This document shows, piece by piece, positions 5,441 through 48,844 of a DNA stretch of 64,000 nucleotides; within the stretch, counting starts at the first letter, position 1; every line of letters starts with the position of its first letter. The notes beneath the pieces were generated by a model. It was not told the DNA's origin and did no database searches. It saw only the letters and a program-made list of their open reading frames with translations. The stretch spans positions 28,005,345-28,069,344 of the forward strand of contig OX467089.1 in assembly GCA_950106755.1 (NCBI GenBank), read 5' to 3'. Position numbers and translations under genes: made by a program. This DNA comes from Climacium dendroides (taxonomy: Eukaryota; Streptophyta; Bryopsida; Hypnales; Climaciaceae).

Positions 5441-5454
5441 TTATGGGTGACTAA

Positions 5455-6780: not shown

Positions 6781-9230
6781 AAATTGAAGATGTAGTAGTC
6801 AAATACTTTAATGCAGTACTTTGGTAGGACAACATCAACATCAACTACAAAGTCCCACAACAGTCTAAGTACTTAGCAGAGTACATTGAAACTAGAGGAG
6901 GAAGATCTAGGATCAAGGGTTTGGACCTTATTTCATAGCTGCAACTAATTATTTCAAGATGGGGGCTTGTTCATTACCTACAAGGGGTCAAATTTGGCCG
7001 TTCCTAGAATTCTTCTCTGGTATGCTTACATGTTTGAGGAGTATTTAATACTAATGCACATGAATTTTTGTTCTTTGTATGAGTTATATAATGCTATTGA
7101 ATGTAGCCATTCTTGAACTTGAATTTTTACATGAAATGAATTCAAAGATCGCAACTTGGGGTACTTCTACCTAACTTTAAAACCTCAATCAAATGCAACT
7201 GAGATTTTAGATGTACTTAGATGCACTTAAATATGACAAATAATGAGTATGTGTTCTTGTACTATAGGTACTTCAAGCATGAGCTCGAGGCAAAAGGTAC
7301 AATTGCTCAAAATGACCTACCTCCATTCTTGTCCATATAGTTGGATAGTAGTTCAATAAATTGCAGGTACACTTCAAGCTAGTTGCACACCTTCACCACA
7401 GCTCACTTTAGTAGTGGAGCATGGTACTAGCTTGGACTGCCCCCTCACCTTCATTCATGCGTTGGAGATATAACTACAGGCATCTTTGGAGGACAAAGGT
7501 GTCGTTGACTTGGAGGTTGATGAGTTTGTAAGGTTGTCGGATAGCCAAAGGAGGAGGGATATTCAGTGGAGGAAGGCAAATGATAAGAAGAAAGAAAATC
7601 AATTCAATGACATTCTTATTGCAAAGCAAAAAAAGACAAAGCAGTTGGTAAAGTTGGTAGCAAAGGAGAAGGAGGTGAAGGGAAAGGAGAAAAACAAAAA
7701 GAAGATCGACGAAGGTGGCCAAGTCCTTGTATCTTTGACTATGGAACAAAACTCTCAGATGTAAGGCGGATCTCAAAGTGTTGTGAAGAAGAAGGCACCA
7801 ATATTGAAACTAACAGAAGACGTAATCACTCATAGCACACAAGCCATTGTTGTTGTTGTTGAAGATGAGGCATACAATATTGAGAATTTAATCCTCAACA
7901 TTTTCATTGACAATCTAGTGGACAACATGCAAACCAATCCATCCAATTGGTACACAGAGGTGATGAAAATCTTGACAAAGATAAAACTCTTTTCAATTTA
8001 AAATTAGATTTCATATCTGGGGTAAATGAGATGAACATGGTTTGAATCTATAATGAATTTTTTAACGTATTATATATTTGCAACTATTGATAAAGAAGCC
8101 ACATATGTATAATGGTAAAATAAATCAGTGGTTGGGAATAGACCTTGTGATTTTCAATTGCCTAGATAATTTGCTTGTGCCAAGAGTGACTTCTCCAAAA
8201 GGTGTGGTGCCTATATGGAACTCGGACAAAGAACTAGAGGCTCTTAATTCAGCATTTGTTTTTTTAGAAAAGCATCTACAAGATGGTGATTGTATGATAG
8301 TGTTTCATTTGTGGTCCACCGATTGAAAGGGCAATATTGCAGGATTGTATAAGACTTATTCATTAGTGAAGATCAAGGAGTTCATGGGTGCCAACTGCCT
8401 CCTTTTGACCTCCATTGTAGATAAGATTACCATAATAACTCTTCTACATTTATTTAAGATTTCTATGCCATTTGGTAATGCATATTGTTAAATCTTTTTA
8501 TGATACATATATTGGTCTTGGCAGCTTGTAGACACAAAAATTTGGTATTAACATCATGGTGAAGGACCTTTGTGATATAGGCAAATCAAACTTCTCTTTT
8601 AAACACACAATAATGTTGAAGAAGGCAAGTATTGACCTTATACCAAATGACATGCTATTGAACTACACTTTTAGATATAACATGGCGATGAATGGCAATA
8701 AACCATGGCAGGTGGATTGCAAAAAAGGACACATTGTTTATACAAATCCTTCTTAAAGGCACAACTATTGAAGGAAATCTAGTTCAATGCTACAATGTGG
8801 TTTTTGACGTCCTCCTCCTATTCATGAGGACAACTACTATAACCTTGGGAAAGACACAAGCACCACCAACAGTTGTGGCATCCCAAGACCTTAACATTAC
8901 ACTTATTGTGCCAAAGAAATTTACTATAAAGATAAAATTTAGTAAGTGATTTTGCAAATTTTTTGGTTCTTTCTTTGTATGGTCATTTTTATATTACATA
9001 ATTCTAACATTATGTCATATGTGTCTATAGTCATTGATGATTGATGTTAGGAGATGTGATGACAAAAATTCAAAATCTTTTGTTTAGTCTAGATAAGTCT
9101 TTCCATCTTCCACCCTATGCCGAGCAGATGGCATCGACGTTTGTAAATTCTGGTTGTTCTAAACCAAAGCCCCAATTACCCAAATACACTGCAAATGTTG
9201 TACATTTCATAGATGTTTCATAATCCAAGG
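6780..9230 (+). pseudogene. broken copy of an unrecognised gene family also present at 59-64 kb (methyltransferase-like)
   Basis: Several disconnected plus-strand frames read like exons of one protein. Near 6850-7030 they give YKVPQQSKYLAEYIETRGG, RIKGLDL, then NYFKMGACSLPTRGQIW. At 7486-7764 there is a Lys/Glu-rich coiled coil. At 8078-8400 they give GIDLVIFNCLDNLLVP, then LEALNSAFVFLEKHL and DGDCMIVFHLW, then a TGA at 8324 after which the frame continues GNIAGLYKTY. The first block matches YRLP...GG...RGLD in the minus-strand gene at 63.8-64.0 kb. The LVIFNCLDN segment looks like an amino-methyltransferase motif IV (DPPY type) that has lost its key residues. Stops and missing links show decay. 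The family is not identified and the methyltransferase reading is inference. Confidence 0.4.
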
Positions 9231-9241
9231 ATAAAGAGACT

Positions 9242-9691
9242 TGTTGTGTAAACAAAGATCGTTCTACACAATAGATCGAGTGCCACAATCAACATCTAAA
9301 ATACCATAGCAAAACAAAGCTAGAATGTGCAACAAACACACCCTCAAAGAGAAACAAACTAATCTACTCACACAAGTGAAGCGGCTCTCACTCCACAAAG
9401 GGAGAATCCAAGAGTGCAAGCGTGAGAGAAGAAGTAGGAATCTTTACTAAGTGATAAATACCACCTCCAAGCAAGCTTCCAAAACACAACAATCCTCTCA
9501 AAACCACTCACAAAACTTGACTTGACAAGAATGCCAAGTCAAGGAACTCTTTCCACCTTAAGCTTCAAACCCTAAGGTGGATAAATTATAACAAGTGGAT
9601 GAAATCCATCCCAACTAAGGTAAACTCTCCAAAAAGTCCACCTAACACTACATCTAGATGCCATGTGGCTACAATGTCACCTTATGTGACA
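9242..9691 (-). repeat. 3' terminal repeat of the retrotransposon
   Basis: On the minus strand it starts TGTCACATAAGGTGACA and ends TTTACACAACA, that is TG...CA. The outer 340 bp (9352-9691) match 22,120-22,462 with about seven differences, all transitions; in each the base here is T or A where the other copy has C or G. The inner 110 bp (9242-9351) are not found at the right end but recur at 9695-9800. Confidence 0.7.
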
Positions 9692-9694
9692 GCT

Positions 9695-9800
9695 GTCGTG
9701 TAAACAAAGATCGTTCTACACAATAGATCGAGTGCCACAATCAACATCTAAAATACCATAGCAAAACAAAGCTAGAATGTGCAACAAACACACCCTCAAA
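9695..9800 (-). repeat. second copy of the terminal 105-bp segment, next to a purine tract
   Basis: TGTCGTGTAAACAAAGATCG through ACACACCCTCAAA repeats 9242-9351 almost exactly. Together they give the arrangement U-A-U at this end but only A at the other. On the minus strand it follows TAGGGGGGGCA, a good polypurine-tract candidate. Confidence 0.6.
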
Positions 9801-10130
9801 TGCCCCCCCTAGCGGATAAAGAGCCCCTCCATCCAGCTAGGAACAAACACACACGTAGTTGGAGAAGACCTTCAGTGATGTAGCTACTACAACTATACAC
9901 CTTCAAGTCAATGTAGAGGTACAAAGATAGGCCAATCAAGTCGGTATGGAAGTGACTAAAGGATTGTAGGCTGGGTGCAATGTGAGCCCCATCCTTAATC
10001 GCCTTCGACAGTTTTTGAGTCGAATCCAATGGTTAATCTCACATAAATTGATGTCGTGAACCCATAAATAATACCCATTAATTGAATGGTAGCATGATCA
10101 CTAAAATGAATGTCAACTCCAGAAAAGTCT

Positions 10131-10682
10131 TCAAACGTTGGTAGAAGACTGTCTACAATGAGGACAAATCCAATTTCCAATAGGAAGTGTGGAAAGAAGA
10201 GGAGTCAAGCATGCCATATGCCATCCTCGTTGGCATTGGTCGCACAATAACATAGTAGTTGCCCCTTTCTTCTCACCACACACATAATATGGAAGACCAA
10301 CTGGTACAACAACTAGTTCTGGGTGTACAGACCCTTCAATAGGAAGATGACATGGAGCACAATTTTTAGAATGCTCTCGACATTCCCGTCCATCTTTGCC
10401 TTCAAGTAACAAAATACCACTAGGCAATATCGCCTTTACACGAAGAATGGTGTGTCCAGCTTTCACATCAAGGGTAGTAGGTGCCTCACGTTGGAGATAA
10501 ACATAATCTCTCCTTGAAAATCTCCTCAATTGAGGCCGATAAGCTCCACTACGAATACGAGCATACCGTAAGGTATCACGATGTTGAGCAATGGATAAGT
10601 TCTCCATAGCCATAGGCATGGCCTTTTTGAAAAACTCTGCTTGATCATTTAGACATTGTGCCCACATATCAGGGTCATCCAA
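10131..10682 (-). pseudogene. integrase C-terminal part with a PHD-like zinc finger
   Basis: In frame with the integrase ORF to its right, separated by one TAA (about 10,707) that fits a former CAA. The first 70 residues are the usual basic tail after the integrase core (LRYARIRSG, RRFSRRDYVYLQ). Residues about 140-178 form a PHD-type finger: VCGE, MLLCDQC, GWHMACL, NWICPHC. PHD fingers have C4HC3 ligands and read histone H3 tails; in chromatin-targeting elements such a module could steer integration. The first cysteine of the expected CxxC pair appears as tyrosine (YYVC), a one-base G-to-A type change. So the finger is recognisable but damaged here. Confidence 0.7.
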
Positions 10683-10706
10683 ATTGACAACTGGAGCTAA
10701 CTTCTC

Positions 10707-11960
10707 TTAAACTGAGTTGGGTAAAACTGGCTTCCGTCCATATAATAATTGGTAAGGGCTATAAGATGCCAATAATGCTTGCCTGCTAAAACGATAGCCC
10801 ATAGCAATCCATGGCAACATCAAGTCCCAATCACGATGATTGCCATGAAGCAATCCACACTTCCGTAAACCACACTTAACTGTCTGAACAACCCGCTCAG
10901 CTAAGCCATCCGCCTCTGGATGATCCCTAGAGGAAGTACGGTGATCTATTAGAGCCTTAGTACATAATTCCTCAAATGAACCAAGGAATTCTCGCCCTTG
11001 ATCGATCAACACCTCAGCGGGAGCTCCCAAATGTGATAAAACACGATCAAGAAAAGCCATAGTCGCTAACTCTGAAGAGTTTTGTGGTAGAGCAACAAGT
11101 TCAATCCACTTGCTAAAATGTTCTACCATTACCAACACATATTTAGCTCCACGTGAGGTAACAACCAACGGCCCAGCAAAATCCAATGACCAACGATAGC
11201 CCAAGCCCATAATAGATAAAGGCCTCAACTGTGGTGATAAGGTGTTAAAACTTGATTTAACTCGATCACACACCTCACACTGAGAAACATAATTGGCAAC
11301 TTGTTGATGCATACCAGTCCACCAATATTGGCTGCGTAACATAGAATGTGTTCTACGCACCCCAAAATGTCCAAGGTCTTCATGTACGTGACGTATCAAA
11401 GATGCCCTTTGATTTGGTCTTGGAACTATACGCCTAGATCCATCCGACCACACACGAAACAACAAACCGTTCTCCCAACGGAACCCTGTTGCACGATGAC
11501 CAACTCTATCCCGCTTTAAGGCAGAGATAGGTATAGAAAATGTCCCTTGTTGAAGTTTGTGCAAGACTGCTTGGTCTTCCCACACATCACTAACAACTTG
11601 GGCTCTATCAGATTCTTCATCTGACCCTGGTCCGGGCATCATAGATGCAAAACCTAATAACATAGTAAGGTATACCGCGGCATGCCATCCAAGAACTACC
11701 TCTCTGTTACATTCTCCATGCCATCTAGTTCCCGTCAAGTCCTCTTCTGAAAGGCTTGGATTACGAGAAAGTCCATCAACATCCAAATTGGTAATGTCGG
11801 CGCGATGGACAACGTCAAAATCATATTCTTGAAGCAACAACGCCCATCTAGCAAGTTTGCCAGTAAGTTTATCTGATTCCATGAGCCACTTCAAAGGTTG
11901 GTGATCTGTCACCAAAGTAAAACGTTGACCATATAAGGACGAAAATGAGCGATGGCCCAA
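10707..11960 (-). pseudogene. RNase H end plus integrase
   Basis: The frame opens inside the RNase H/connection region (GQRFTLVTDHQPLKWL, then WALLLQEYDFDVVHRA). Next comes the HHCC zinc-binding domain (HEDLGHFGV ... YWWTGM ... CEVC). The catalytic core follows: WSLDFAGPL gives the first Asp, VLIDQGREFLG the second, and EADGLAERVVQT the Glu, that is the D,D-35-E triad, all present. The last part, YSPYQLLYGRKPVLP, is the typical GPY-side end of a Ty3 integrase. Integrase inserts the cDNA into host DNA. The start is an artefact of a frameshift at about 11,945; it is not a separate gene. It continues after a stop into the PHD-bearing tail. Confidence 0.85.
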
Positions 11961-12230
11961 ACTGCAGCCAAAGCTTCTCCTTCATAAGATGAATAGTTGG
12001 ACTCTGCGCTATTATTGCTTCTAGAAGCAAATGCAATGACATATTCTCGTCTTTTATCACCCTTTTGTATTAAAACCGCTCCTAATCCCACTACACTCCA
12101 ATCAGTGTGTAATTGAAAGGATCTGGTAGCATCTGGCCTTTGCAACACTAGAATTGAGTTCAACTTTTGCTTCAATGTATCAAAAACTTGCTGCTGCTCA
12201 CGACCCCAAGTCCATGGTTGGTTTTTCCCG
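11909..12230 (-). pseudogene. RNase H domain, frameshifted
   Basis: The reading LQRPDATRSFQLHTDWSVVG, then GAVLIQKGD, REYVIAFASRS and YSSYEGEALAAVWAIAHFRP is the N-terminal half of a Ty3 RNase H. The first catalytic Asp (HTDWS) and the Glu (YEGEALA) are visible. Two frame breaks are seen. One lies in the A-run near 12,228, where one missing base changes the expected GKNQPWTWG frame. The other is near 11,945 at FRP(Y/L)YGQRF. RNase H removes the RNA template during reverse transcription. This copy is dead at this step. Confidence 0.75.
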
Positions 12231-12234
12231 TAAG

Positions 12235-12447
12235 TATCGTCAATGGCTTAGCAATCAAGCTAAAGTTCTTGACAAACCGGCAATAGTAATTCGCCAAGCC
12301 AAGAAATGCTCGAAGCCGTGGCACATCAATAGGTGCAGGGATCTTTTGCAATGCATCTACCTTTGCTTGTTGCACTCTAAGACCTCTTGGTACAATCATA
12401 TGGCCTAAATATGGCAACCGATCATGGAAGAATCTACACTTGCCATG
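12235..12447 (-). pseudogene. reverse transcriptase, C-terminal part (after the nested insertion)
   Basis: Reads HGKCRFFHDRLPYLGHMI, AKVDALQKIPAP, LRAFLGLANYYCRFVKNFS. This is the thumb/connection part of a Ty3 reverse transcriptase. Without the insertion at 12,453-16,011 and one copy of the 5-bp target repeat, it joins the other RT half as RLHHGKC in frame, which fixes the insertion point. Confidence 0.85.
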
Positions 12448-13733
12448 ATGCATGTCGTACGTTCAGTTAGCCGTAAGTATCCTTACAACGACAAATGGTT
12501 GCAAAATGACATGAATTATCGTTCCAGGGAACTTCTAGTAAGATATCGATTGAGTTAGAAGTATCCGGATCGTGACTACTCACTTAATCCTCTTTCTTTC
12601 ACTTACCCTATCTCGTTCCGGAAACTTAGTACATTCCGGATTCCGTTCCGGATCCGAACACACCCGGAACTTAGTTCCGTCTCCCTTCCGTCACTGGTTT
12701 TTGTTGCCTCTGTTTTACCCTCAAAGGGTCCGCCCTTGATCTAGAAAGGGGTGGGGACTCACCACTTGTGCAATATCCTCTCTATACTCTAAATCTACTA
12801 AACAATACACCCAAGACAACACAGCTGTAGGAAGAGGGAGGGAGTATCCTCTCACAGTTTTCGGATTGGTCGATCCGGAATCAGGTCACCTAGAGCAATT
12901 CTCACACCTCTCTTTACTACAACGACGGATCCGAACTCATAGATCCCAAAGAATAGAGTTTCAAGGGGAAGATAATGTACCCAGGGGGAGGTTGGTAGAC
13001 TTTCCGGAGTAGCGGGAGTTCCTTTCCTTTGGTGGTTGCTTATCTCCGCACAGAACCCTCCTGGTTCTGGATTCGCAGGGCCCTCTACCCTCTTACCCGG
13101 ATTGCCGTTCCGGCAATTTAAAAGCACGTCACACTTACACTCCCTTACTTAGTTCACATTCCTCCTACTCAGCTCAACACCAAGAGATCCGTGGCTCAAG
13201 ATCCGGATTCCTTCTCTCCCTCCCTTCTCTTTCTCCAGTACCAGACCACACACCCATGCATACACTCAGCCAAAAAGACCCTGTCTAAGCAAAAGTACAG
13301 CTAAAGGTATCCTGGCTGACTTAGATTAAAAAAAGAAAATTGTAATACATATGTGAAAGCACTAAAATCGAGTGGAGTAGGATGGAATGGCAGACAACTA
13401 ATTTGCCTGCCCTTAAAATACTAACACAAAAACCCAAAGTCAACTCCTAAAAGCCTGAAAAGGAAACTCGAAAATCTAGGCCACCAATCCCTGAACCTCC
13501 CGGAATATCCGGAAAGATTGCTAACTGTCGTCCGAGATTACCGGATTTCCTGACTATCCGCCTAAGATTCCGAAAACCGGGTCCATGCTCGGAACCCCAT
13601 TCCGGATTCTATACTTCTTCTCCTACCAACCCTAATGTTTTGGCTTCCGTCCTTTCTTTAAACAGCTCCCCGCTTGGCTGGTAGGCGTCCCCTTCGTATT
13701 CTTCGCTGGCGTAGTTTTTGCTGTGGCCCGAGT

Positions 13734-14759
13734 CTAGATATGGCGTGTTGCGGGAGACGGATCGCTGTCGCCTTCGGTTCCGGAAGTGGAGTGGGCACTC
13801 TCCTCCTCAGAATCTTCAATGACTTGAACTTCCTTCTCCTTCTCTGGTGTTGTATCCTCCAATGTTGCGGGTTCGCTTCCTTTTTCCGGCGTGGTCTCTT
13901 GCATGTGCACAAATCCTTTCGGATTAGTCCGAGCCGGATTGGTCATCCCACCGATCCGGCTAATGAGATCTCCCCTAACTTGTTGTCCCGGAACCTTGAA
14001 TGATTTGGTCATCAAATTCGGCATTGTTTGTGCCTTGGGAACTTCCGAGGTTGAGAACTTAGATGGCACTGGAACCGTTTTCGCGCTAGACACAGGTTCC
14101 GGTTCTGCGGCTGGCCTCAAATTCAACTCCGTCATCCGTATTTTATTGGCGAAAGGCTCGGCTGGTGTGAGTATCCCCCTCAAACCCTCCATCCGGGTTG
14201 CATGATCCGCCACTGGTTTCCCTGGGGTACCTGCGACAAAAGGAAGTTCCGGAAAGGTGGAGAAATCCATCGCATGGTTTGGGGCGATGGCCGCCAGTAA
14301 TTTCTGGATCTCCTTCAAAACTCGCTCTATCCTCGCGGTGAAGTCTACGAGGATGGTAACTACCTTGGTTCCGGTAATGTGGCCTTCCGATATCATCTTC
14401 GAGTCAAACAAGGCAGCTTTTGTGATGATGTCGACTTTGATGTTGATTGCTCCGGTTAGATTCTTGACCAGAGCGAGAGCCTCTTTCTCTTTCTCTTTTG
14501 CAGCTACCATTTCCCCTTCCGCCCAATTCACTCGGGTCTGGAGTAGGTTCCGTTCCGCCTCCAACTCCTGGATCCGCTCCTCCCTCTTCTTCAGATCCTC
14601 CGGTTTGGGTAGTCGCTTGACAACTTCCACGATCTGATCCGGATCCACCTTCAACACTTCCGCGGTATCTATCACCAAATCTAACAACCCATCATGGAGT
14701 ACCTTGGCTTCACGTATCCACTCGAGTCTCGCATTGAAAAATGCGGATTCTGTTTCCAT
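13734..14759 (-). CDS. ORF2 of nested element: coiled-coil protein, unknown function
   Basis: 341 codons from an ATG. No enzyme motif is seen. Residues about 55-125 form a long charged coiled coil (EERIQELEAERNLL, EKEKEALALV). Residues 125-175 form a helical block with TILVDFTARIERVL. The rest is low-complexity Pro/Ser/Glu/Thr-rich with an acidic end (EVQVIEDSEEES). Coiled coil plus disordered tail resembles structural Gag-like or ORF1p-like proteins of transposons; that role is inference. It lies 18 bp downstream of ORF1 on the same strand, so one transcript could carry both. The frame is uninterrupted, so the copy may be young. Confidence 0.6.
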   Translation of the reverse strand: METESAFFNARLEWIREAKVLHDGLLDLVIDTAEVLKVDPDQIVEVVKRLPKPEDLKKREERIQELEAERNLLQTRVNWAEGEMVAAKEKEKEALALVKNLTGAINIKVDIITKAALFDSKMISEGHITGTKVVTILVDFTARIERVLKEIQKLLAAIAPNHAMDFSTFPELPFVAGTPGKPVADHATRMEGLRGILTPAEPFANKIRMTELNLRPAAEPEPVSSAKTVPVPSKFSTSEVPKAQTMPNLMTKSFKVPGQQVRGDLISRIGGMTNPARTNPKGFVHMQETTPEKGSEPATLEDTTPEKEKEVQVIEDSEEESAHSTSGTEGDSDPSPATRHI

Positions 14760-14777
14760 TTCAAGTCCTTTGCTGGA

Positions 14778-15581
14778 TTACCCCCTCTCCATCGTCTGTG
14801 GCTTGATTCTCGACCCCGGATCGGTTGACTTCCTCTTCTTGGTCCTCAGATCGGTCAGACGTTCCTCGGGAAGTTCCTCCGGATCAGACTCGACTGAATC
14901 TTCCGCTTCCTCCCCGGAAAGTCCGTATGATAGGAGCGTCTTTCCGGTGTCATACTGGATTACTTCCACCGCACTCAAAAGTTCCTGTTGATGGTACAGA
15001 TGAAACAAGTAGGTGCTAACTGGACTCGCCTTTGCTCGGGTCACGTGATCCGCTAATTTAGCCACTATCCTGGCTATGACCCTACCCCAGTGCACTGCCC
15101 GGTTCTCCATAGCTCCAAAGATAGTATTGGCCACCGTAATAGTAACCCGCATTGGCTTTTCCGGATACAAGATCGGAATCAGAAACTCTAGTATCCGCCT
15201 ATGTCTCTCGTCCTTATACTCGTTGATAGCGAATCCGTCCTTAGGGTTTGCAAACCCAATGAACTTCCCAGCTACAAAACGGTCCGTCCTCGATGCTAAA
15301 CCGTTCCCACTCTTCCGGAACTGATAGACATCTGCCCAGATGTCCTCGGTCCACGTGACTGGCCGCCCTCTCAAAGTGAGCTCATACTGATTCGGAACAC
15401 CGTGAAGTAGCTCTTGAATCATCTCCTCACTCTTGAGGTTCCATGGTCGATGTAGTAGACCGACACATCCTAACTTAGTTAAGTCCTCCTCTAACTGCTT
15501 GTGTAGTTCCGGGCTATCCGGAATGGCCGGAGAGATAACCCGAGCAGATACCGCTACCTTCCGTACTAGTCCGGATGCCAT
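14778..15581 (-). CDS. ORF1 of nested element: unknown protein
   Basis: 267 codons from an ATG (MASGLVRKVAVSARV). Residues 20-210 look globular, with conserved-looking Trp/Tyr/Pro positions (LHRPWNLKSEEMIQELL, RPVTWTEDIWADVYQF, ILEFLIPILYPEKPMRVT). The end is acidic then basic (SDPEELPEERL, RTKKRKSTDPGS), a likely nuclear signal. I do not recognise the family. The globular part with a W/Y/P pattern is like a plant retroelement Gag capsid region, which is only a suggestion. The frame is open and ends just before ORF2. The RKSTDP tail is shared with the remnant near position 370. Confidence 0.6.
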   Translation of the reverse strand: MASGLVRKVAVSARVISPAIPDSPELHKQLEEDLTKLGCVGLLHRPWNLKSEEMIQELLHGVPNQYELTLRGRPVTWTEDIWADVYQFRKSGNGLASRTDRFVAGKFIGFANPKDGFAINEYKDERHRRILEFLIPILYPEKPMRVTITVANTIFGAMENRAVHWGRVIARIVAKLADHVTRAKASPVSTYLFHLYHQQELLSAVEVIQYDTGKTLLSYGLSGEEAEDSVESDPEELPEERLTDLRTKKRKSTDPGSRIKPQTMERG

Positions 15582-16016
15582 AAGATCTAAGTGAGAACGA
15601 GGGAAAAGTAGTTCTACTTCAGTCGCTAACTCACCACTCTTTTTTTCAACTACTCACACAAACAGTCTCAGGAACACAGAACAGGAAAGTGAAGAGGAAA
15701 CCCTAGGAAGACAGCTTAAGTACTAAACCGTCTTTTTACGGGCTTAAGGACAACGGCTACAGGTCCGTTGTATTAACGGTATCCTACTTCCGTAGCTACG
15801 AGACCTATACGGTAGGTTCCTGTGTTCCGAATGAGTCCGGATTCCGGATCCGGACAAGTTCCGGTTTAGGGTTGTGCCGGAACGCTTATTTTCTAATTCA
15901 AGCTATCTGGTCCAAAAATCACGCTCTAACTATTATTTTTTTTTATTTTTTTTTATTTTTCGTACCTACTTCTTGTATTATTGATCTATTTCCGAATTCC
16001 GGATTCCCACAATGCA

Positions 16017-16803
16017 AGCGTAATCCCCATTGTTGTAATCGTTCAAATATTGCTTGTAAATGTTTGACATGCTCCTGAGGATTGCTACTAAAGATGATGA
16101 CATCATCAATGTAGCATCTAGCAAATGGTAGTCCAGCCAAAACTCGGTCCATTACTCTTTGAAACTCAGATGGTGCATTCTTTAGACCAAATGGAAGAAA
16201 CTTCCAATGATAAAGTTGATCTTTTCCATCTTGATCAACTCCCCAGAATGCTGTCTTAACTCGATCTCCCACAAGCAATGGCAATTGGTGATAACCAGAT
16301 CGCAAGTCCAAAGTACTAAAAACCCGTGAGAATCCCACTGCATCAAATATCTCTTTTGGCATGGGCATTGGATACCGGTCTGACTTGGTCTTACGATTCA
16401 CTAGGCGGTAATCTCCACACATTTGTTTTTCCGTCCAATTACCAAATATATCCTTCTTAGAAGGCATAACCATAGCACAAGCGTACTCGCCATTAGAAAG
16501 TTTAATCAAGCCCGCAGCCAATAACTCTCGACAATGAGTTTGAACACCTTTTCTTTCTGATACACTCAATCTGTAAGGGCGCCTAAAGATTGGATGATCA
16601 TCCTCCAATTGAATATGAATAGGCTTGCCTTTATAGCCCTCAAGCTCTTCCAATTTAAATGCAAAACAACTACGATACGAGCGAATAAAAGCTCGCACCT
16701 TCCGTGCTTTGGCACCAGTAAGATTTGGCCCCAATTCCAATGGCCAATCATCAAACTCAGTGGTCACCTTTTCAATTGATGGAATACCATTGTATGCTGG
16801 CAC
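16017..16803 (-). pseudogene. reverse transcriptase, N-terminal and catalytic part
   Basis: Contains the Ty3 RT blocks in order: PYRLSVSERKGV, LLAAGLIKLSNGEYACAMV, MCGDYRLVNRKT, YPMPMPKEIFDAVG, FSTLDLRSGYHQL, FLPFGLKNAPSEFQRVMDRVL, and the catalytic YIDDVIIFS with both aspartates. It copies element RNA into DNA. The frame to its right (methyltransferase end) is linked by two neighbouring stops, TAG TAA at about 16,810, which fit CAG CAA after C-to-T change. The frame ends at the nested insertion; the last residues before it are GLRLH. Confidence 0.9.
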
Positions 16804-16815
16804 GGCCCTTGATTA

Positions 16816-17740
16816 CTAATCTGTAAGAGGCGCAATTTTTGTGCCCCCAACTTCTTCGCTTGAAATTAAATGAAGAGCTTCAACTTGACAATTTGTATGA
16901 GACTTGGTAGTATCCAGAGGAAGTAGAGTATCATGCATAAACACCCGTGAAAACATCTCTTGGGCATTTACTTTTCCAAACTCTTGAGCCAAAGCAGCAA
17001 AAACACGTTGAGCACGAAGTTCTTTTGCTGCTTGTTGCTTCAAATGAAAAAATAGTTTAGACTCCTCAATCTCAATGGGTTTTGGCTCTACTGCCCCCTG
17101 ACCATTGCTTTCTTGCCTCTGAGTAAGCAAATGGCCATCATAATGACGCTGAATAGCCAGACATGTGCCAATAACCCATACAAGGGTATTGAGATCCATA
17201 GCTTGGCCTAAAAGAAAACGTTGTTGACCTTCTGTAAGGTCGATAGCAGCAGTGGTACCAGTCAAAAAATCCATAGCACGTTCACGCTCATCTGCATTAG
17301 GTTCTTCATGGATGTGGGAGATGCCACTCCAAATCATACCAGGACCACGTGCTCGAAATGCGAAAGAACTTGGATAAGTTACAAAGGTAGGGAAGGCAAC
17401 TCGTGGTGCTCCCAGCTTGTTCACACAAGCCAAAGGAGACTCATCGTCTTTAGAAACATCCAAAGGAACACGATGATCATCCAAAATATCAACCACTTTG
17501 CATCCAATAGGCCTCTTAATTCTTGAAAGAGATGCTGTAAGCACATTAGATGCAGCTAGATTGGTCCAAATCCAACGTGAACGATGAGCATAAGAACCTA
17601 AAACTGCAGCATCTACAAAAGTTGGAGGGCCTAAAATTTGGTGAATATAATGCCCATTCTTGAGAACCTGTGACCTTATATCACCCAATGGAGGCACATT
17701 TTCGAAAATATATGCCGGTGGGGAAGATTGGTGGGTGTAC
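16816..17740 (-). pseudogene. C5 cytosine DNA methyltransferase, C-terminal half
   Basis: Starts with PPAYIFENVPPLGD, the ENV motif VI of C5-methyltransferases. Then come VDAAVLGSYAHRSRWIWTNL (motif VIII region, Arg-x-Arg) and a target-recognition stretch (IKRPIGCKVVDIL). EEPNADERERAMDFLTG and QQRFLLGQAMDLNTLVWVIG complete motifs IX/X, the AdoMet-side helix. Such enzymes transfer a methyl group from S-adenosylmethionine to cytosine C5. It is joined in frame to the middle part through one TGA at about 17,740 (former CGA likely). After the methyltransferase, about 100 further residues of unknown type (FFHLKQQAAKELRAQRVFAA) lead to the RT. Lying between protease and RT, it is part of the polyprotein. 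Confidence 0.85.
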
Positions 17741-17742
17741 CA

Positions 17743-17973
17743 TCACTTTGTGAGCCGAAGCAAATCTACGAAAAGCCTAGATCGTGGATCGTTAAGACCT
17801 CTACTCGCTCCAGCTCGTGAATGACCTTGGCAAGGCCACCCAGCAATAAGTAAATCAATATGGCTCAACCTCCTCAAATTTTCATCACTAATGAGAGTGA
17901 CATCTTGAAGAAGTTTGTTAAAACAACCATGAATAGTAGAAGGTGGAAGTTGCTCTGGATATAGAGCCAACAA
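17743..17973 (-). pseudogene. C5 cytosine DNA methyltransferase, catalytic middle part
   Basis: Contains DLLIAGWPCQGHSRAG, the motif IV Pro-Cys-Gln loop with the catalytic cysteine, followed by GLNDPRSRLFVDLLRL, the usual partner of that loop. A TGA at about 17,999 separates it from the motif I part and a TGA at about 17,740 from the ENV part. Both fit CGA to TGA. The spacing of motifs I, IV, VI and VIII is normal for the family, so the ancestral element had a full-length enzyme. Confidence 0.88.
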
Positions 17974-17997
17974 TCGCTGGATATAATAACGAGTAGC

Positions 17998-18930
17998 TCA
18001 ATTGGGTGTTATCCCATTATCCACATGAATGTAGCATTTAACTTTAAGTCCAGCTGCTAAAACAGCTGCCAAACCAGTTTCGATGCCCGCAAATAGCTCC
18101 ACGAGGATAATGCCTTCTAATGATGGTTGCCAATGAATAGGTTGGGCAAAAAGAGATGTAAAAGAACTAGAAGGCTCCTCTATAGCATCCAATGAAGTTA
18201 TAATGTCTCGACATTGTTGAGACAAGTGAGTACTTGTACCCCATGGAGGAGTAAGATCCTTGCAATGTTTGCTAGGAATTTCAAAAGTAGGTGGATCAGA
18301 TAATGCCATGGAACTAGACATAAATGCCATAGTCTCTTTTAAAAGCACTGAACCACATGGTAAATTTGATGCCAACGCACTGCAACCAAATAAGACCTTT
18401 GCTGACATTGTCATTGCAGCTGCTGCAAAAGCTACGGGAATAAATTCCTTTCTCCCGTCATCAGTAGACCATCCCGGTCTAATCCATGTCTCTTCAGTCC
18501 AATTATCAAGACCAAATCCAAGAGGATATAATGCTTGCTGACCAACCAATATGTCATAGTTGATAGCATTGGTGACAGCACATTGTAGTGATAAATGAGA
18601 ATAAAGTGGTCTAGATCCAATGCAAAAAATCAATTGCAATGGTAGTTTAGTATAACCAATGACACGCTCTATACCATCAACAGAAGTAACAATGGTAAAT
18701 GGACATGGCTCAAGGTCTACAGCAGTGAGACCTAAATCATCAGCAAGTCGCTTGCCAATCATGACTGGTTGAGCACCAGAGTCTATCATCACTCGTAATG
18801 GTGTAGCACGAGTGATATTGCCATCCATACGGCTAACGACAAGAACATCATTGTCATTAGCAAGTCGCACCACACTTGGTCGTAAACTGCAACGTTCTTG
18901 AGCTAACCTAGCAGCAACATCAGCCAGGTA
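17998..18930 (-). pseudogene. aspartic protease plus methyltransferase N-terminus
   Basis: Near residue 27 the frame reads RVMIDSGAQPVMIG, the Asp-Ser-Gly active site of a retropepsin, followed by IVTSVDG and INYDILVGQQALYPLGF, the second half of the fold. This enzyme cuts the polyprotein. After about 100 variable residues the frame ends with LVELFAGIETGLAAVLAAGL and YIHVDN, the motif I/II AdoMet-binding part of the methyltransferase (about 18,114 down to 17,998). Protease and methyltransferase are therefore in one frame, which argues for true fusion, not chance insertion beside the element. Confidence 0.85.
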
Positions 18931-19536
18931 CTAAGCCACTCCCGTAATTGAAGATGCATCAACAGGAAAAGTTGGTTGTACTTCACTCAAAGTTCTCTCT
19001 TCAAATCCCACAATAGCTTCAGTTGCAAGCTTGGCTCGCAACTTAATCAAGTCGTCATTGGTAGAAGGCGCGGTAATAGCTTGAGCCACATCTAGAGATA
19101 GCAAAGATACCTTACCCTCCAACATCGTGCCCACTAAGTGAAATACTTGAGCTGGTACAAAATCTGTAGCTAACATCTCTATAGAAGAAAAGACTGGCGT
19201 TTGTAATACTTTATAAGCTAAAGTATGTGCCAAGTCTTTTGAAGTAGTTGCTTCTTGGAATTTTGCCAACGGAATGTAAGGATGGGTTGCAGAAGTAACA
19301 TCTGCAAGGCCGAATGATAATGGCAAACGTGCTTGACCAATATAATCTAGTAAACCACCATGGCGCATACGCTCATCATCTTTAGAAACATTTAAAGATA
19401 GTGCAAGTGATTCGGCTGCCGTTTGAGCACGTGTAGCAGCAACTGACACCATCATTTCTCCAGCGACGCCAAATACGTATAAGTCAGAACTAGAACCACT
19501 AGCTCTAGTTTGAGAAGTGAGTTTAACATCTGTAAC
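18931..19536 (-). pseudogene. Gag-protease linker region of the polyprotein, unknown
   Basis: The 174-codon frame (19,455-18,931) with AATRAQTAAESLALSL, DYIGQARLPLSFGLADV and EAIVGFEERTLSEVQP is in frame with the protease part after one TAG (about 18,928). No domain is recognised. Position between zinc knuckles and protease suggests linker. Confidence 0.5.
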
Positions 19537-20811
19537 TTAACCAAGTGAGGCCACTATATTGAACCGCTTTTCAAGCTCAGCAATTTTGGCTTCTAGAGCC
19601 TTTTCTTTGTCTGAAGTAAGTCTCTTTTCCGGATGTAGAATAAAACAGTGATCTACATTATGATTGAGTCTACCACAATGGGTATACTTCAAATCCTTCT
19701 TCTTGGATTTTTCCCTTGCCTTGGCCACTTCTGTTTTTTGTTTGGGCTTCTCAAAAGACTGAGCCTTTTTCTTCTTTGGGCAATTGGGATCATTTTTGGC
19801 ATGGCCAAATTCTCTACATCCCCAACAATGTAGAGTCTTTGGGGTCTTTTCAGGCTGATTTTCTGCCAAACTACTTATAGCAATAGCAGCCTTCTTAGGT
19901 TTACTACTATCTGTCATTCAAGAAACTATGTCGGTAGCATCATGCTGATATAGAACTCTATCACACCTCTCAACTTTAGCAAACGTTTGTGCTAGCGTTG
20001 CTCGACCTTCATAGTTGATAATAATCCTTGGTGTGGCTAAATCAAGAAGTCTTTTGTCAATTTTAGACAAAAAAATCTTCACCAGCTGGCTCTTAGCAAA
20101 TACACCTCCAGATTCCACTGCAAATCGTGCCAATCTCGTATACATCGTGCGTGGAGTATCCTCCTTTTTACGACGAAAATCTTGAATGCGTTGCATTTGG
20201 TCACGTCGAAAACCTCCATACTCAACTTCAAGATGAGCAATGAAGAGGTGTAGTGGTTCAAATACTGGTGGCTCGCCAACTGCTACTAACGCCGCTTGCG
20301 TGGCTTGTGCCATCCGAGATAAGGTAACAGAAATTTGGACTGGTGTCAAAGTCTTCCTTTTAGTGTCCTCGAGAGATGAACCACCTTCTGGTATTGCCAC
20401 ACCTGTGTTTTGTGGAGAAATCAAACTAGCAGCTGCACCCTCTTTAAGTGCAGAAACAAGTTCCATACGAGCATCCCAATAGTGCTCTACCCGACGTAAA
20501 TCATTAGTATGCTCTATGGTCCATTGCTCGTATGATTGAAGTGCTTCATACTCCAAATGTTGCGGTAACAACTCAAAGGCGTACCAATCATTGAAATTTG
20601 GAGACCGTTGACGCTTCTCCTTCATCCAAGTCCGGAATCGAAGCTTCCAGTTGGGTAGGGAAATACCTCCAGCCCTTCCGGAGAATCGATCTTTCACCAT
20701 GTTGCGAGGATCGTCGTCCATATCGTAAACCGTACTTACACTCCAAACCCGAAGCCTACTAGTGGTATCCAACGCTGAAATAGGCTCAAAAGCCTCGTTG
20801 GTATACACCAC
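19537..20811 (-). pseudogene. gag: Gag with two zinc knuckles
   Basis: Starts at an ATG (MVYTNEAFEPISALD) and is open for 297 codons. A TGA (19,918-19,920) follows, then the same frame continues to 19,537. The first part has the helical capsid of Ty3 Gag: LHLFIAHLEVEYGGF, then RRKKEDTPRTMYTRLARFA and LVKIFLSKIDKRLLDL. The second part is nucleocapsid: CWGCREFGHAKNDPNC, and YTHCGRLNHNVDHC where the first Cys of the usual CxxC is Tyr. Lys-rich linkers surround them. Gag packages the element RNA in particles. The stop fits CGA to TGA and the Cys-to-Tyr fits G-to-A, so both are decay. Confidence 0.8.
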
Positions 20812-22119
20812 TAGCTCAAAGTTATCGGTGTGAGTATCCTCTAAGTAGTCAGGTGACGGAGATCGATAATATCAACTCCGAGTCTGCACCATACAATAAC
20901 TACTTAGGTACCTGCAACTATCTAATGGTTTAGGGCAACCTACACCTACAAAAGCACCAAACTATATAGTGCACCGGTCATCACCTCTGGTCGGATTACT
21001 ACAGGTCCAACAGCCCACAACAAAAGAGTCACATCGGTCATTAATCCGACCTCACTCCTACAGTTTGTCTATCACAAACTAATTACAACACAAAATGGGA
21101 CAAAACCGGAAACCGCCGGCAACAATGTCCGCCACGAGGGAAGGTACCAAAACAAAATCCAAAAAATCCAAATTGGATCTTCTTCCCCAAACAACGAATT
21201 GCAAAAACACAAGAAAATGTGAATCAGAGCCACCGACACACGCCTACGGTGGATGATCACGAGTTGCCAATCCTGTGTCAATGAAAACAATACAAGACAC
21301 TAGCAAGTGTCTCTTTTAGGTTCCAAAACCTAATATCCCCGGAAATCTTGAAAATTAGTGTTTAAAAACACCATTCAGCCCATGATAATTGCTCCTACAG
21401 GCTGAAAATCAAGTCCAAATGCCAATCCAACTACACCATTGGAATCCTTGGCAAATGTCACATAAAATAGGCACAAATTTCACTCAAATCCGAGCTAAAA
21501 TGCCTCCCAAATTGAATTTCAAAGTTTGCACCTCACACTTTTGTTGAAAATTTGAAACTACAAAATTACTAGATTCTGGATTTCCCAAATCAGCGCCAGA
21601 GGTACATTTCAGAAATCTTCCCAAAATGTAGATTTTAAAATCTTTAGATTTCCCAAATTTCAGAAATCTTTAAATTTCCTAGATTTCGACAGAAAATCTT
21701 CAAAAATCCTAGATTTGGGAAATCGGTGTGAAGTCCAGGGACTACTCCAAAACAACCTCAAAACTTCAAAACCCTCTAATTTTCTCAAAAATCACTCAAA
21801 TCCTACGATTTTTGAAGCGTTGGGTTCGTATACAACTCCTCTACAACTTCTACAAGTATGAGTGACAAACTAAAACTTTGAATTTTGCAATTTCACTCAC
21901 AATTGCCACTACAAGGAAGGAAATTGAAATTTGGAAAAGAAAACACTCACAACCTTTCAAGTTCTCTCCACCTCTTCCAATCACTCAATATACACCACAA
22001 ATTGCTTGCAAACACTAGAGAGTACCTCCATGTACGAGTCACACTTAAAGAATCCGTTTAATCTCCACTCCAATGCTTTGCTCCACCACAAATTTGAAGA
22101 AGAGACATTCTTGTCAAGT
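20812..22119 (-). other. 5' leader of the retrotransposon, no gene
   Basis: Between the Gag start and the shared terminal repeat. AT-rich, with repeated AAATTTCAGAAATCTT words near 21,600-21,720. No frame is supported. It should hold the primer-binding site and packaging signals, but I cannot identify a tRNA-complementary stretch with confidence. A 14-bp inverted repeat (CATTCTTGTCAAGT at about 22,107 and its complement near 22,290) joins leader and repeat. Confidence 0.5.
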
Positions 22120-22462
22120 GAGAAACAAACTAATCTACTCACACAAGTGAAGCGGCTCTCACTCCACAAAGGGAGAATCCAAGAGTGCAAGCGTGAGAGA
22201 AGAAGTAGGAATCTTTACTAAGTGATAAACACCACCTCCAAGCAAGCTTCCAAAACACAACAATCCTCTCAAAACCACTCACAAAACTTGACTTGACAAG
22301 AATGCCAAGTCAAGGAACTCTCTCCACCTTAAGCTTCAAACCCTAAGGTGGATAAACTATAACAAGTGGACGAAATCCATCCCAACTAAGGTAAACTCTC
22401 CAAAAAGTCCACCTAACACTACATCTAGATGCCATGTGGCTACGATGTCACCTCACGTGACA
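22120..22462 (-). repeat. 5' terminal repeat of the retrotransposon (340 bp shared part)
   Basis: Minus-strand start TGTCACGTGAGGTGACATCG, then GCCACATGGCATCTAGATG and so on, matching 9352-9691. The similarity stops at GAGAAACAAAC (22,130), so the downstream part of the left repeat (9242-9351) is missing here. Confidence 0.7.
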
Positions 22463-22469
22463 GACTTCA

Positions 22470-23480
22470 GTTTCAACTATCGATATGGATTCAGTGATCA
22501 AGTCCATTGCCACTTAGACTCATGAGATTAACATATCTCATGAGCCACATTATTATGTATTGTTTTTTTTCTAACTGAATTTGTGTGTCTTATAGCTAAA
22601 CTTTTGGCATATTTATTTTCCTTCACATTTCAACATTATGTGATTTGTATCGAAATTGACTACATTTGGTTATTGTTCTAAATATTTTCAAAAATAAATT
22701 TGAAGTGCCTTCAAATTCTAAAAAATGACCTCAAAAGTTTGGGACTTCATAATTCCCTAAATCTATGGTCATAGGTCCCCTCATCCATTTTTTCATCAAA
22801 AAAATCCTTGCTCACAAGCTCACAAGCTCCCGCTCACAAGTTCACATGCTAGCAACCCTTTGTTTTATACTAGCAAAAATAGTACCAACTTGTGTTGTAT
22901 ACATTCCCATTCGTGTGTGAATTAATTTTGTCTAAAATTATGTAGTCTTTTTTCTTGACTTTGTCTTAGATGGCAAAGCTTTGAACCTAGGGGTTTAGAA
23001 GTGTTGGTTTTGTTACAAAAATTCAATTGAACAACAAAGCTTTGATTTTGTATATGGTAAAAAAAACTCTCAAAATATTTACCAAATAGAAATCTAGAAA
23101 GCATTCCAAGGTAGTGTCAAGCTGTGGTTTTTAAGCTTAAAAAGCTTAGTATCCAAATATCCAAGTGTTGGGCCTTTAATTTATTTCCAAATATCCACAT
23201 TTTACGTTACAAAATTAGCTTTCTATGTTATTTTCATCCTTAAGGGAACCACCTCCAATTGTCAAAAACCACATCTAATTTGCAAGAATATCCTCTAGTC
23301 TTCCAAAAACCACACCCAATTGCAAATACACCCCTGAATTTTCAAAAACCACACCCCAATTACAAATGCTCTTCTAGTACTTAGCTACTAGAATCTCGAA
23401 GCTAATAATTGAGTACATATGGTTTGGGGCCAAACTAGGTGTTAAGGATTTATCCAAGCCAAGTGTTATACTAGAATTCT
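22470..23480. other. non-coding, no gene recognised
   Basis: AT-rich spacer with short shadow frames only. CAAAGCTTTG words at 22,975-23,045 resemble those at 3.4-3.7 kb in inverse sense. Confidence 0.35.
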
Positions 23481-25900
23481 AATGTCAAATAGTCAAGGCA
23501 TGTCAAATAGTCTTGGCTCTTGTTCTATCGACTTAATCAAACCCACAATTTATATATGTATATTGGTGTGGAAATACACCTTTGTAACTCCTTAATTATT
23601 TCCTTTATTTGTACGTGTCAAATAGTCCAATGGCTAACTTTACTAGCCTAATTACTTTAATTACAAAATTTCAAATACTGTTGCGTCAATTTGGCCAATA
23701 CCACAATGGTTAATATTAATTCATTTACTTAATTAATTATGCATTTGGTCAAATAGTCTTAGTAACTTTGTCTTCAAAGCTTCAGTAACAAGTCTATTGG
23801 TCCAAAACACAGGTTAGCTTATTACAATGATATAACCAAATCAATAGGTCGAATAGTCTTCTACTCTATTCCACTAACTATTTCTAACTACTTTGATCTC
23901 AATGTCAATTGGTCAACTTGTCCAGATATGCATACACCTTAGTTCACATTAATTTGTACAAAATTCTATCAATTACCACCAAAAGATTTTGCTCCCTAAC
24001 TCCCCTGCAAACAACCACTTGTTACACAATGTTACTTAAATTATCAATATCATTTCAAGCACAAGGCTATTTAACTGAGTTACAATTTCATAATTAAATT
24101 ATTTAATTCATTACTTTAATAAAACATACACCTCAATTTAATTCAATAATTTCAATATCTTTAACATAGACTAATTGACTGATTTAATATAATCAAAGAT
24201 ATCATATTTCACATTTTTCTTGTTTAAACTTTTTAATCTAATCTGACTACAATGACAACCAGAAAGATACTCAGTCAATTAGACAAGTAATTTTAGCACA
24301 CATTTATATTTATCGAAATAACTTCGCCAAGACAATTAGACTGAATCAATTCCCACAACATACATCATCTCGTATATGTATATAAATATAGTTATAATAG
24401 TTATGTATTTATATACTCTGCCTATAAAACTGGATCGATTGTATATAATATCAACAGGTTAATAGACTAATTGACTTCACATAGCAAGCATTCTTGATAT
24501 ACTACAATTCAAATGAACACTGTCTTACTATCCCCATTGTCTAATAGACTCAACCTTCCTAATTTCTCATTTGCGCATTTTTCAATGAGACTATTGGACT
24601 GATAATATACTAAGGCAATATTGCCAATCACTAACTGAATGGTTAATTGCGGGTGTAAATTTCCTTTATAAAACAGTCCTCCTTCAGACTATTAGACAAT
24701 GCTTTATCTTTAAGCATATTACTTCAAGTTAACGAACCAACCAGGCCAATCTCCAGCACAATCAAGTGTTTTTTCTCAGACTACTTGACTTAAAATACCA
24801 ATCACTGGTAATTAATTTCAATTTTTTTAATACAACCAATCCTTGGTTATTAACCTTCACACTTACCAGGCTACGTGTCTTTGCAACTTAAGTTGCTTGA
24901 TATAATTTTAAGAGAAAAGAACTTAACTATCACAGTTTTGTCTATTTGACTTCATTTACTTGTTTTGGCTATTAGTCAGCTTCACGCTCTAAGATTAATA
25001 GACTTATAATATGAATTAAAATATTGGCCAATCACTGGCTTAACAAATTCATCCCTTCAATCGATTTGATTCAAAATACCAATCACTGGTAATTACACAA
25101 ATAATTATAAATAAATTCGTTTTATAACAAATAACATTATTTTCTATTTCCTTAATATTTTGTCAGTTGGTGAAGTTCAAGAAATCCAATTACCCCACAG
25201 TGATAAGGATAAAGAAAAGCTTACAGTTTGATCGTCTCGCTGATCCGCTTGTCAGCAGCTTTTCTCGTCAGCTCCTGCTCCTCAGGTTCACTGATTGCAG
25301 ACTCAACCTCAGACAATTAGTCCTTGTGCTCGCACTTACAAACAACCACCAACCACTCACTGGCTAATAGTCGATCAATCACAGTAAACAATTACCAACT
25401 GATATGACATTCTTTCACAGACTGCCTTGGCTAATAGACTTAATCAAAAAGTTAGAACAGAACAAAATGACAACGCCACTCTCTGGCTAATTGTCTTGAC
25501 TCCAAAAACTGCCAATCCCTGGCTATTTGACTGCAACCAAAACCTGCCACTCCCTGGCAAAACCAAGAAAATACAACCACACACACAAACAGTCAATCAC
25601 TGGCTTACAAAATATTGCACAACGACAAGTAGATGAAATTGACAAATTGTATTGAAGGACTGCACAAGTACAACGAAGGCGGCAATCACTGCAAACGTCG
25701 GAAGAAAGAGAGAAAAACAAAGATGAATAGTCCTTATGTTCTTGGGCCTAACCAACTAACCGCAAGTCAATTAGTCTAACTACTCTAACTCCTTAATCGA
25801 TAGTCTACTTGTCCTTTTTACTTTTACATCATTATTATCTTTTAATCTCATTCGATATTCCTTTTAAGTAACTCTAAATGGTCTATTAGTCTTCTAACTT
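23480..25900. repeat. AT-rich block of recurring short words (AATAGTC / GACTATT; CCAATCACTGG)
   Basis: No coding frame. About 20-25 copies of words of type ATTAGTC, AATAGTC, GACTAATTG or their complements occur. From 24,627 about ten copies of (G)CCAATCACTGG(C) or variants occur (24,799, 25,028, 25,078, 25,350, 25,475, 25,510, 25,546, 25,591 and others). Spacing is irregular, 40-250 bp. The class of the DNA is unknown. Confidence 0.45.
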
Positions 25901-25936
25901 TAAAAACTTCAAAATTATCCAAAATATGATGTCCAC

Positions 25937-26662
25937 AGTTGTTGCAAGAAACACTTGTCCTATTTGGCTCAAAATGGCCTATTTCAATGACTACCATGAT
26001 TTTTGGAATAATTTTTTTTTAATGAAATAAAATATAGATAATTTGTAAAGCACTGAAAAAATATGTCTCCAAAAATTCAGACCTAAAAAAATTTATCTCT
26101 AAAAGTTATGCACAAAAAAGCACAATGGAAAATACTAAGAAAATGGACACTTTGGTGTTTGATTTTTAGAAAATAGTAAAAAATTCAAAACAAAAAAATA
26201 AAAAAGATATTTTCTCTAACTTGAAGATGCTCCTTCTCAACCATTTTCATCTTTGGAAAAATAAAATTGTATTCTCTACACTTGTGCAAAGGTCACTTTG
26301 AGCACATGTGGAAGGTGGATAGTTTATTATTTTAAAAAATATATTTTGCGGGATTGTGTAACTTTAGTAGAAGTCTTTGTATTCCAATTTTGAGTTTCAA
26401 ATTCGAATTCGAATTTCAAGGTCAAAAATAGTACTAACCCCCCTCCAAATGGCCAAGATAGACATCCAATTGAGGGCTGTTTAAAAATAGTAAAATAATT
26501 TTTTTTAAATCCAAAATAATTACTCAACATTTGCAACTACTACATGTACCTTCACTTCAAGTTTTATAGAAAACAGACAAATGATGCAAAAGTTATGAGT
26601 AAAAAACCACCTATCCAAGGTCAAGGGGACAAAAAATAGGACAAGTGTTTCTTGCAATCACT
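25937..26662. mobile_element. small inverted-repeat transposon, relative of 33,073-33,808
   Basis: The ends are inverted repeats of about 25 bp: TTGCAAGAAACACTTGTCCT at the left and its complement at the right. No ORF of note. The same end sequence bounds the better-defined element at 33,073-33,808 of almost equal length. No clean target duplication is visible here. Confidence 0.65.
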
Positions 26663-26679
26663 CTTGTTTCTTGTAGAAT

Positions 26680-30280: not shown

Positions 30281-30282
30281 TA

Positions 30283-31576: not shown

Positions 31577-31659
31577 TTTGGATTTTTGTGTGATTTTGTA
31601 TTGCATATGTGGATCCTATCTTTTTATAACCTTATACGTTTATTCCACTAATATTTGAA

Positions 31660-48775: not shown

Positions 48776-48844
48776 TATGGAGATTGCAAGTCACTCCCAA
48801 ATTGTTTGGGCCATCCCTAAACCCAAGTGGGAAAGCACTTCCTG

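Follow-up and report, generated by a model that had tools for sequence, protein, structure and literature searches.

Retrotransposons that carry a cytosine DNA methyltransferase (DNMT) of their own have been described in the charophyte alga Klebsormidium nitens (KnitGypsy-Dnmt3) and in Symbiodinium (SymbioDIRS-Dnmt3 and SymbioLINE-Dnmt) (de Mendoza et al. 2018, PMC5890265), in keeping with an earlier note on the DNA analyzed here, which had named such enzymes from charophytes and dinoflagellates. As that paper presents them, retrotransposon DNMTs are able to methylate CG sites de novo, the published activity being that of the SymbioDIRS enzymes and the SymbioLINE enzyme being inactive in the same yeast test; the role of the enzyme is called unclear there, and other roles are offered, slowing of transposition among them (PMC5890265). 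The K. nitens element combines domains typical of Gypsy with repeats structured like those of a DIRS element, for which the pattern is A-coding-B-A-B; its DNMT is under purifying selection across copies (Ka/Ks < 0.2), and the case is viewed as an acquisition in that lineage (PMC5890265).

The window analyzed here, that is, the whole stretch of 64,000 nucleotides, contains a broken copy of an element (about 9242-22461, minus strand) whose layout matches the published one of KnitGypsy-Dnmt3. Common to both are a Dnmt3-class domain with canonical motif order and without the DRM-type rearrangement, a Gypsy-type Pol region, intronless structure, and split, DIRS-like repeats. The window element differs in its apparently land-plant host and in having the DNMT upstream of a leaky-type stop that it shares with a relative (L001); a PHD finger, a predicted self-priming site, and a G-rich tract, set here beside KnitGypsy-Dnmt3, are described for the window element, and no K. 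nitens sequence is named among the relatives found. Plant Ty3/Gypsy LTR retrotransposons encode gag, a CCHC knuckle, an aspartic protease, reverse transcriptase (RT), RNase H, and an H2C2-rve integrase, and they generate a short target duplication. The window element has these components in common with them, but it carries split direct repeats in place of LTRs, a DNMT domain, and a PHD finger at the integrase end. DIRS-type retrotransposons integrate by means of a tyrosine recombinase and are not known to produce a target duplication, whereas the window element has an rve integrase and an AGACT duplication. The Symbiodinium elements, too, are either LINEs or dependent on a tyrosine recombinase, in contrast to the DDE integrase found here, although SymbioDIRS, which occurs in two domain orders, has the same A-coding-B-A-B repeats (PMC5890265).

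Structure of the element and its methyltransferase

The element is bounded by identical AGACT target-site duplications (plus strand) at 9237..9241 on the left and 22462..22466 on the right, 4 or 5 bp long according to whether the element starts with TGTCAC or GTCAC, and its outer ends read TGT...ACA. Plain LTRs were sought first and ruled out, the repeats being found split (A...B-A-B) instead of forming two identical terminal LTRs with TG...CA ends. In self-comparison, A1 at the 5' end of the element (22120..22461, minus strand) aligns with A2 (9349..9692, minus strand) at 98.0% identity over 344 nt (22120-22463 against 9349-9692), and B1 (9694..9800, minus strand) is 99.1% identical to B2 at the 3' end (9242..9348, minus strand), giving the order A-coding-B-A-B. 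The B1-A2 junction is a palindrome, GACAGCTGTC, which looks like the two ends of the element joined and which is the same in L001, a 9285-bp environmental contig that holds the same kind of element, with a DNMT 63% identical to that of the window (residues 3-436).

A single minus-strand frame from 20892 down to 15943 takes in a gag-like region, a CCHC knuckle, a protease, the DNMT, and the first part of a Gypsy-type RT. The gag-like region (19918..20892; ATG at 20890-20892) is broken by in-frame stops and matched no Pfam family, and it has 63% amino acid identity to the gag of L001 over 315 codons. It is followed by a nucleocapsid-like region with the CCHC knuckle (19537..19917; PF15288, E = 0.0011, under the curated cut-off) and by an aspartic protease with a linker to the DNMT (18199..18930), which has a DSGAQ motif and a PF13650 match, also under the curated cut-off (E = 2.4e-4), at residues 43-74 of the 17998-18930 frame, immediately upstream of the DNMT. 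The 5' part of RT (16012..16809; PF00078 [RVT_1], 1.2e-23) lies in the frame of the DNMT, starts without an ATG, and is 82% identical to that of L001. Farther along the minus strand come the 3' end of RT with RNase H (11909..12447; PF17919, 5.7e-31), the end of RNase H with a DDE integrase comprising an H2C2 zinc domain and an rve core (10707..11981; PF17921, 1.8e-19, and PF00665, 4.5e-13), and a C-terminal integrase region ending in the PHD finger (10131..10706; PF00628, 2.2e-10), which is present in L001 too (4.3e-10). The order of RT, RNase H, and then DDE integrase is that of Gypsy elements, and the element frames that were scanned with Pfam showed no tyrosine recombinase. This part of the copy is interrupted by two frame shifts, one near 12217-12229 and one near 11930-11936, and by a stop at 10707-10709.

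RT is split by a nested 3.56-kb insertion foreign to the element (12453..16011), with 5-bp TGCAT flanks, TGT...ACA ends, and many short TTCCGGA-type repeats. No LTRs were found in it, and its minus-strand ORFs at 14778-15653 and 13734-14777 gave no significant Pfam family. By eye, an ORF at 391-738 (plus strand) resembles part of the 13734-14777 ORF (EWLQ...KDERIRSLKRERDNLK), which suggests a second member of the same family. Elsewhere in the window there are transposase ORFs of the DDE_Tnp_1_7 type (piggyBac-like, PF13843; 33741-34487, minus strand) and of the Transposase_21 type (CACTA-like, PF02992; 42382-43983, plus strand), as well as a MITE-like palindrome, a 200-bp stretch at 48841-49040 that is 98% its own reverse complement.

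The DNMT domain and its C-terminal tail occupy 16819..18198 (minus strand), and the METHYLTRANSFERASE of the window contains FAGIETG, WPCQG, ENVP, AHRSRW, and the ERERAMDF...GQAMDLNTLVW end, all in order and in one frame (16816-18198, minus strand). Two in-frame TGAs (17998-18000 and 17743-17745, minus strand) divide the domain in this copy, and each of the two open pieces alone gave no methylase match in Pfam or in NCBIfam. The PF00145 match (53.2 bits against a cut-off of 22 bits; E = 4e-14) was therefore gained only with the domain read through both TGAs, with X at each. In the PDB, the single sequence was led by DNMT3A/3B (8e-8), and a profile of 18 sequences ranked DNMT3A best (about 1e-20), followed by DRM (3e-13), HhaI (3e-8), and DNMT2 (4e-7). 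The predicted structure (mean pLDDT, 74.5) matched DNMT3 domains across about 320-360 columns; the first 50 Foldseek matches were all DNMT3-family entries (best E = 1e-15; TM-score by target length, 0.74-0.81, for target chains of <300 residues). Along the chain the motifs run from I to X, in contrast to the rearranged DRM enzymes. A search of 5.8 billion proteins returned 52 relatives, the best of them 74% identical across the whole 460 amino acids, so the domain stands far above chance. The region is thus confirmed as a cytosine-C5 methyltransferase of the Dnmt3 class, and the window element is supported as a Gypsy-type retroelement with its own enzyme of this kind. The earlier note had placed a C5-methyltransferase between the protease and RT of a Ty3/gypsy-like element, within one polyprotein frame. 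The placement holds and the DNMT does share the frame of RT, but a TAG at 16816-16818, the same and at the same place in L001, separates the two.

An intact relative, a leaky-type stop, and predicted priming sites

The two ends of L001 overlap by 127 nt, for which we do not claim a circular DNA, as a cycle in the assembly graph via the repeated A also gives an overlap of this length. Joined at the overlap, L001 has a gag-CCHC-protease-DNMT frame of 1355 codons without a stop, ending TAG CAA TCA, and, in phase with it, a second frame of 1047 codons that encodes RT-RNaseH-integrase-PHD and has no early ATG. In plant RNA viruses, type I readthrough is signaled by UAG followed by CARYYA (PMC5382211). 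The UAG CAA UCA of L001 fits this motif, and the TAG TAA TCA at the end of the gag-protease-DNMT frame of the window (16810..16818, minus strand) does not. Four related proteins (P0001, P0002, P0003, and P0019) end where the window DNMT frame ends. Given the leaky-type stop after gag-protease-DNMT in L001, the DNMT is predicted to be made together with Gag and in excess of RT, a readthrough prediction that rests on the sequence of one intact relative. Counting against this prediction, the DNMT runs into RT within one model in 7 of the 144 related proteins (P0059, P0094, P0098, P0099, P0102, P0114, and P0142); five of the seven are named gene models of Marchantia or Sphagnum and may be spliced, and P0059 and P0142 are unnamed. 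As a side observation, L001, P0002, and P0144 are filed in bacterial bins (Synechococcales, Obscuribacterales, and Spirochaetia), where they are probably misplaced eukaryotic repeats.

In Tf1-like self-priming, a primer site beside the 5' repeat is complementary to a stretch that lies farther upstream in the RNA itself. The window element differs in that the complementary piece lies inside repeat A: the predicted primer-binding site, abutting A1 (22106..22119, minus strand), is a perfect 14-nt complement of 22291-22304 inside A1. Complementarity of this length was reached in 0 of 2000 single-base shuffles of A, and at the same place in L001 13 nt are complementary, with two compensated differences. 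The minimum-energy RNA fold pairs the primer site with the A1 segment (z = -2.8 for the whole 231 nt); in the centroid structure, the A segment pairs in a local hairpin instead. We read the site as a self-priming site, the priming step being a prediction. Primer sites of the tRNA type as a rule begin with TGG, which this one does not, and that type was set aside, the perfect complement lying inside A1 instead. For the plus strand, CTAGGGGGGGCA (9801..9812, minus strand), directly before B1 and identical in L001, is predicted to be a polypurine tract.

Relatives, layouts, and selection

Three protein searches returned 52, 87, and 60 rows, amounting to 144 distinct proteins, most of them unnamed environmental sequences; all searches were seeded with the DNMT, so copies with RT directly after the protease, none of which appeared, lay beyond their reach. 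At least one further retroelement domain stands in the same predicted protein in 75 of the 144, the other 69 having the DNMT alone. Marchantia polymorpha accounts for 15 rows in one search, some of which are probably one locus in two assemblies, and its gene models include Mp_4g09160, Mp_6g11220, Mp_8g17980, Mp_2g26090, and Mp_8g15430 (by gene number, on chromosomes 2, 4, 6, and 8) besides older MARPO models. The matches in Calypogeia fissa and Sphagnum fallax lie on contigs of 8.8 and 18 Mb, respectively. All three species have the DNMT with protease and/or RT in one predicted protein, and by virtue of these related proteins we conclude from sequence that DNMT-bearing Gypsy-type elements occur in land plants. 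A search of mainly open-access literature found no report of such elements from land plants. This extension to land plants is what the earlier note had proposed, pointing to a neighboring land-plant DYW PPR gene; the gene is present, but about 32 kb away, and it is the one feature from which the window is taken to come from a land plant. It is open (54939-57452, plus strand), has DYW/E/E+ domains, and contains in-phase tandem copies of a 303-bp block (about 55420-56587; 72-88% identical), an array that, as its sequence indicates, is a recent expansion.

Among the relatives, the DNMT is found at two places. In the first layout it precedes RT (7 proteins with both, and 37 more with protease and DNMT only); in the second it follows RT and RNase H (17 proteins, 13 with integrase and PHD), and in P0116, P0123, and P0135, RT-RNaseH-DNMT-integrase-PHD is encoded in a single frame of up to about 2200 amino acids. 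In a DNMT tree of 81 rows, with part of human DNMT3A as the outgroup and 66 of the 146 domain spans omitted (<85% of the profile or at least 500 amino acids), one branch (SH-aLRT, 93) parted the 47 and 26 rows assigned to the two layouts, the layout of fragment rows being assigned by kinship or by an adjacent integrase. Eight rows belong to neither layout group (the outgroup, P0037, P0046, P0050, P0059, P0064, P0130, and P0142), and the split is not clean, since four of them lie on the side of the other layout: P0059 and P0142, with the DNMT before RT, and P0064 and P0130, with the protease before the DNMT. In an RT tree (3 of 26 RT matches omitted), the window, L001, and two Marchantia rows lie on one side of a branch (support, 100), and a wider set (100) unites these four bryophyte-type rows with P0059. 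Neither of the two trees has a certain root.

The DNMT of the window falls within a group of 14 rows of element type that has good support (SH-aLRT, 97). On the domain tree suggested earlier, this places it among element enzymes, while placement relative to host clades is judged by element context and the partial human DNMT3A outgroup. It bears directly on whether this one copy came by a host DNMT3 gene through chance, be it by capture or by insertion of the gene. Bryophytes possess Dnmt3 sequences of their own (PMC5890265), which would have offered a source, but L001, Marchantia models, and many unnamed relatives have the same domain in the same position, and with the window domain inside the 14-row group we regard chance capture as having almost no probability.

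Motif IV bears on a different alternative, namely, that the domain has lost the ability to methylate DNA and persists in the particle in a structural role or to bind DNA or RNA. The motif IV pattern was matched in 90 of 146 domain spans (144 proteins, the window, and L001), with the cysteine present in 89 of the 90, the 56 spans without a match being fragments or variants. Proline is replaced by glutamate in motif IV in part of the RT-RNaseH-DNMT-integrase lineage, and the DNMT-integrase-PHD protein of the chlorophyte Tetrabaena socialis (P0090) is without PCQ, as a noncatalytic role would allow. In the window DNMT and its near relatives, however, PCQ and ENV are retained, and the predicted fold matches DNMT3 domains; we consider this alternative quite improbable.

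A scan of genome contigs gave 14 loci, of which L001 alone was accepted as related to the element; the remaining 13 are bacterial records with 22-53% identity over shorter stretches. The 9 loci from a scan of viral contigs did not exceed 55% identity and were set aside. Identity and record title were the sole basis for judging the loci of both scans. Purifying selection on the domain, raised in the earlier note for the copies at large, can be gauged from one DNA pair: between the window and L001, the DNMT has pN 0.21 and pS 0.76 (348 codons; 68% amino acid identity), next to pN/pS values of 0.24/0.71 for gag, 0.15/0.68 for the protease, 0.10/0.60 for the 5' part of RT, and 0.09/0.70 for RNaseH-IN-PHD. 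With one DNA pair and synonymous sites near saturation, these values show constraint but give no reliable ratio.

Decay of the copy and the possible role of the enzyme

Besides the TAG shared with L001, the window copy has in-frame stops at 20872, 19918, 19537, 18931, 17998, 17743, 16813, and 10707. With these stops and the two frame shifts, it is incapable of making whole products today, and the nested insertion breaks it as well. The earlier note had explained the stops by CGA-to-TGA changes and held that the enzyme was whole until recently. The first TGA inside the DNMT fits such a change; the second does not, as close relatives have tryptophan there. For the timing, the alignment of A1 with A2 shows 7 differences in 344 positions, each of them a C:G/T:A transition, as is the one difference between B1 and B2. 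The A repeats give 2.3% change per C/G site per copy, and the two frames of L001 have 207 sites where such a transition creates a stop, so that 4.9 stops are predicted; seven are observed (Poisson probability of at least seven, 0.22), leaving aside the L001-shared TAG and 18931, a codon absent from L001. Decay after insertion would suffice for these numbers, and it is plausible that the copy was still whole at the time of insertion, although this falls short of proof and some stops could be older.

The same substitutions are relevant to the idea that the enzyme restrains its own element, with methylation of the element's copies inviting host silencing, lessening harm to the host, and thereby favoring persistence, a possibility raised in PMC5890265. 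Two features are those that a methylated copy should show: all differences between the repeats are C:G/T:A transitions, and the DNMT region is poor in CpG (observed/expected, 0.50). However, host methylation of any transposon leaves an identical signature, certain other regions of the window have a CpG ratio as low as this or lower (0.46 at 1-10000 and 0.31 at 23000-32000, against 0.68-0.89 in the rest), and the family has many diverged lineages. Restraint is, on this evidence, an unlikely explanation, if the least unlikely of the alternatives considered.

The reading we prefer, and which we consider probable though well short of secure, is that of a recently decayed integrase-type (Gypsy-like) retrotransposon with split repeats, in which a Dnmt3-class DNMT is a regular coding part and acts as follows. 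One RNA would be translated into Gag-protease-DNMT, and occasional readthrough of UAG CAA UCA would add RT-RNaseH-integrase-PHD; the DNMT would then be packaged at near Gag levels and outnumber RT. Reverse transcription would be self-primed, the A segment folding back onto the primer site beside A1, and the plus strand would be started at the G-rich tract that precedes B1. Once packaged, the DNMT would methylate CG sites of the new double-stranded DNA, either ahead of integration or while it takes place, and the PHD finger may steer integration to certain chromatin. Self-methylation of element DNA is suggested here by the published activity of other retrotransposon DNMTs, and its likely benefit would be that a new copy enters the nucleus resembling host DNA and not as an unmethylated foreign molecule. 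Production at Gag level, as predicted, could also serve an enzyme that acts on the host, altering its chromatin or methylation so that the genome becomes permissive. The place of the domain in the particle-forming frame would nevertheless favor cDNA as the substrate, and we give a host target slightly less credence than a noncatalytic role.

Taking the relatives and the preferred mechanism together, a tentative and broader proposal is that DNMT-bearing PHD-integrase elements are an old green-lineage family, in which an early uptake of Dnmt3, perhaps a single one, would have been kept at two places: protease-DNMT-stop-RT in bryophytes and RT-RNaseH-DNMT-integrase-PHD in other relatives; one of the DNMT-integrase-PHD proteins is that of the chlorophyte Tetrabaena. 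In bryophytes, the leaky stop would make the DNMT a major component of the particle, where it would methylate element DNA before integration. This possibility, which we put forward as less likely than the mechanism itself, bears on the published view of the K. nitens acquisition as lineage specific.

Retrotransposons that carry a DNMT run counter to the familiar view that transposons are methylated by their host, and the published cases found are from an alga and dinoflagellates (PMC5890265). The leaky-stop layout leads to a specific prediction of when and where the enzyme acts, and relatives at several Marchantia loci would move the question of its purpose into a model land plant.
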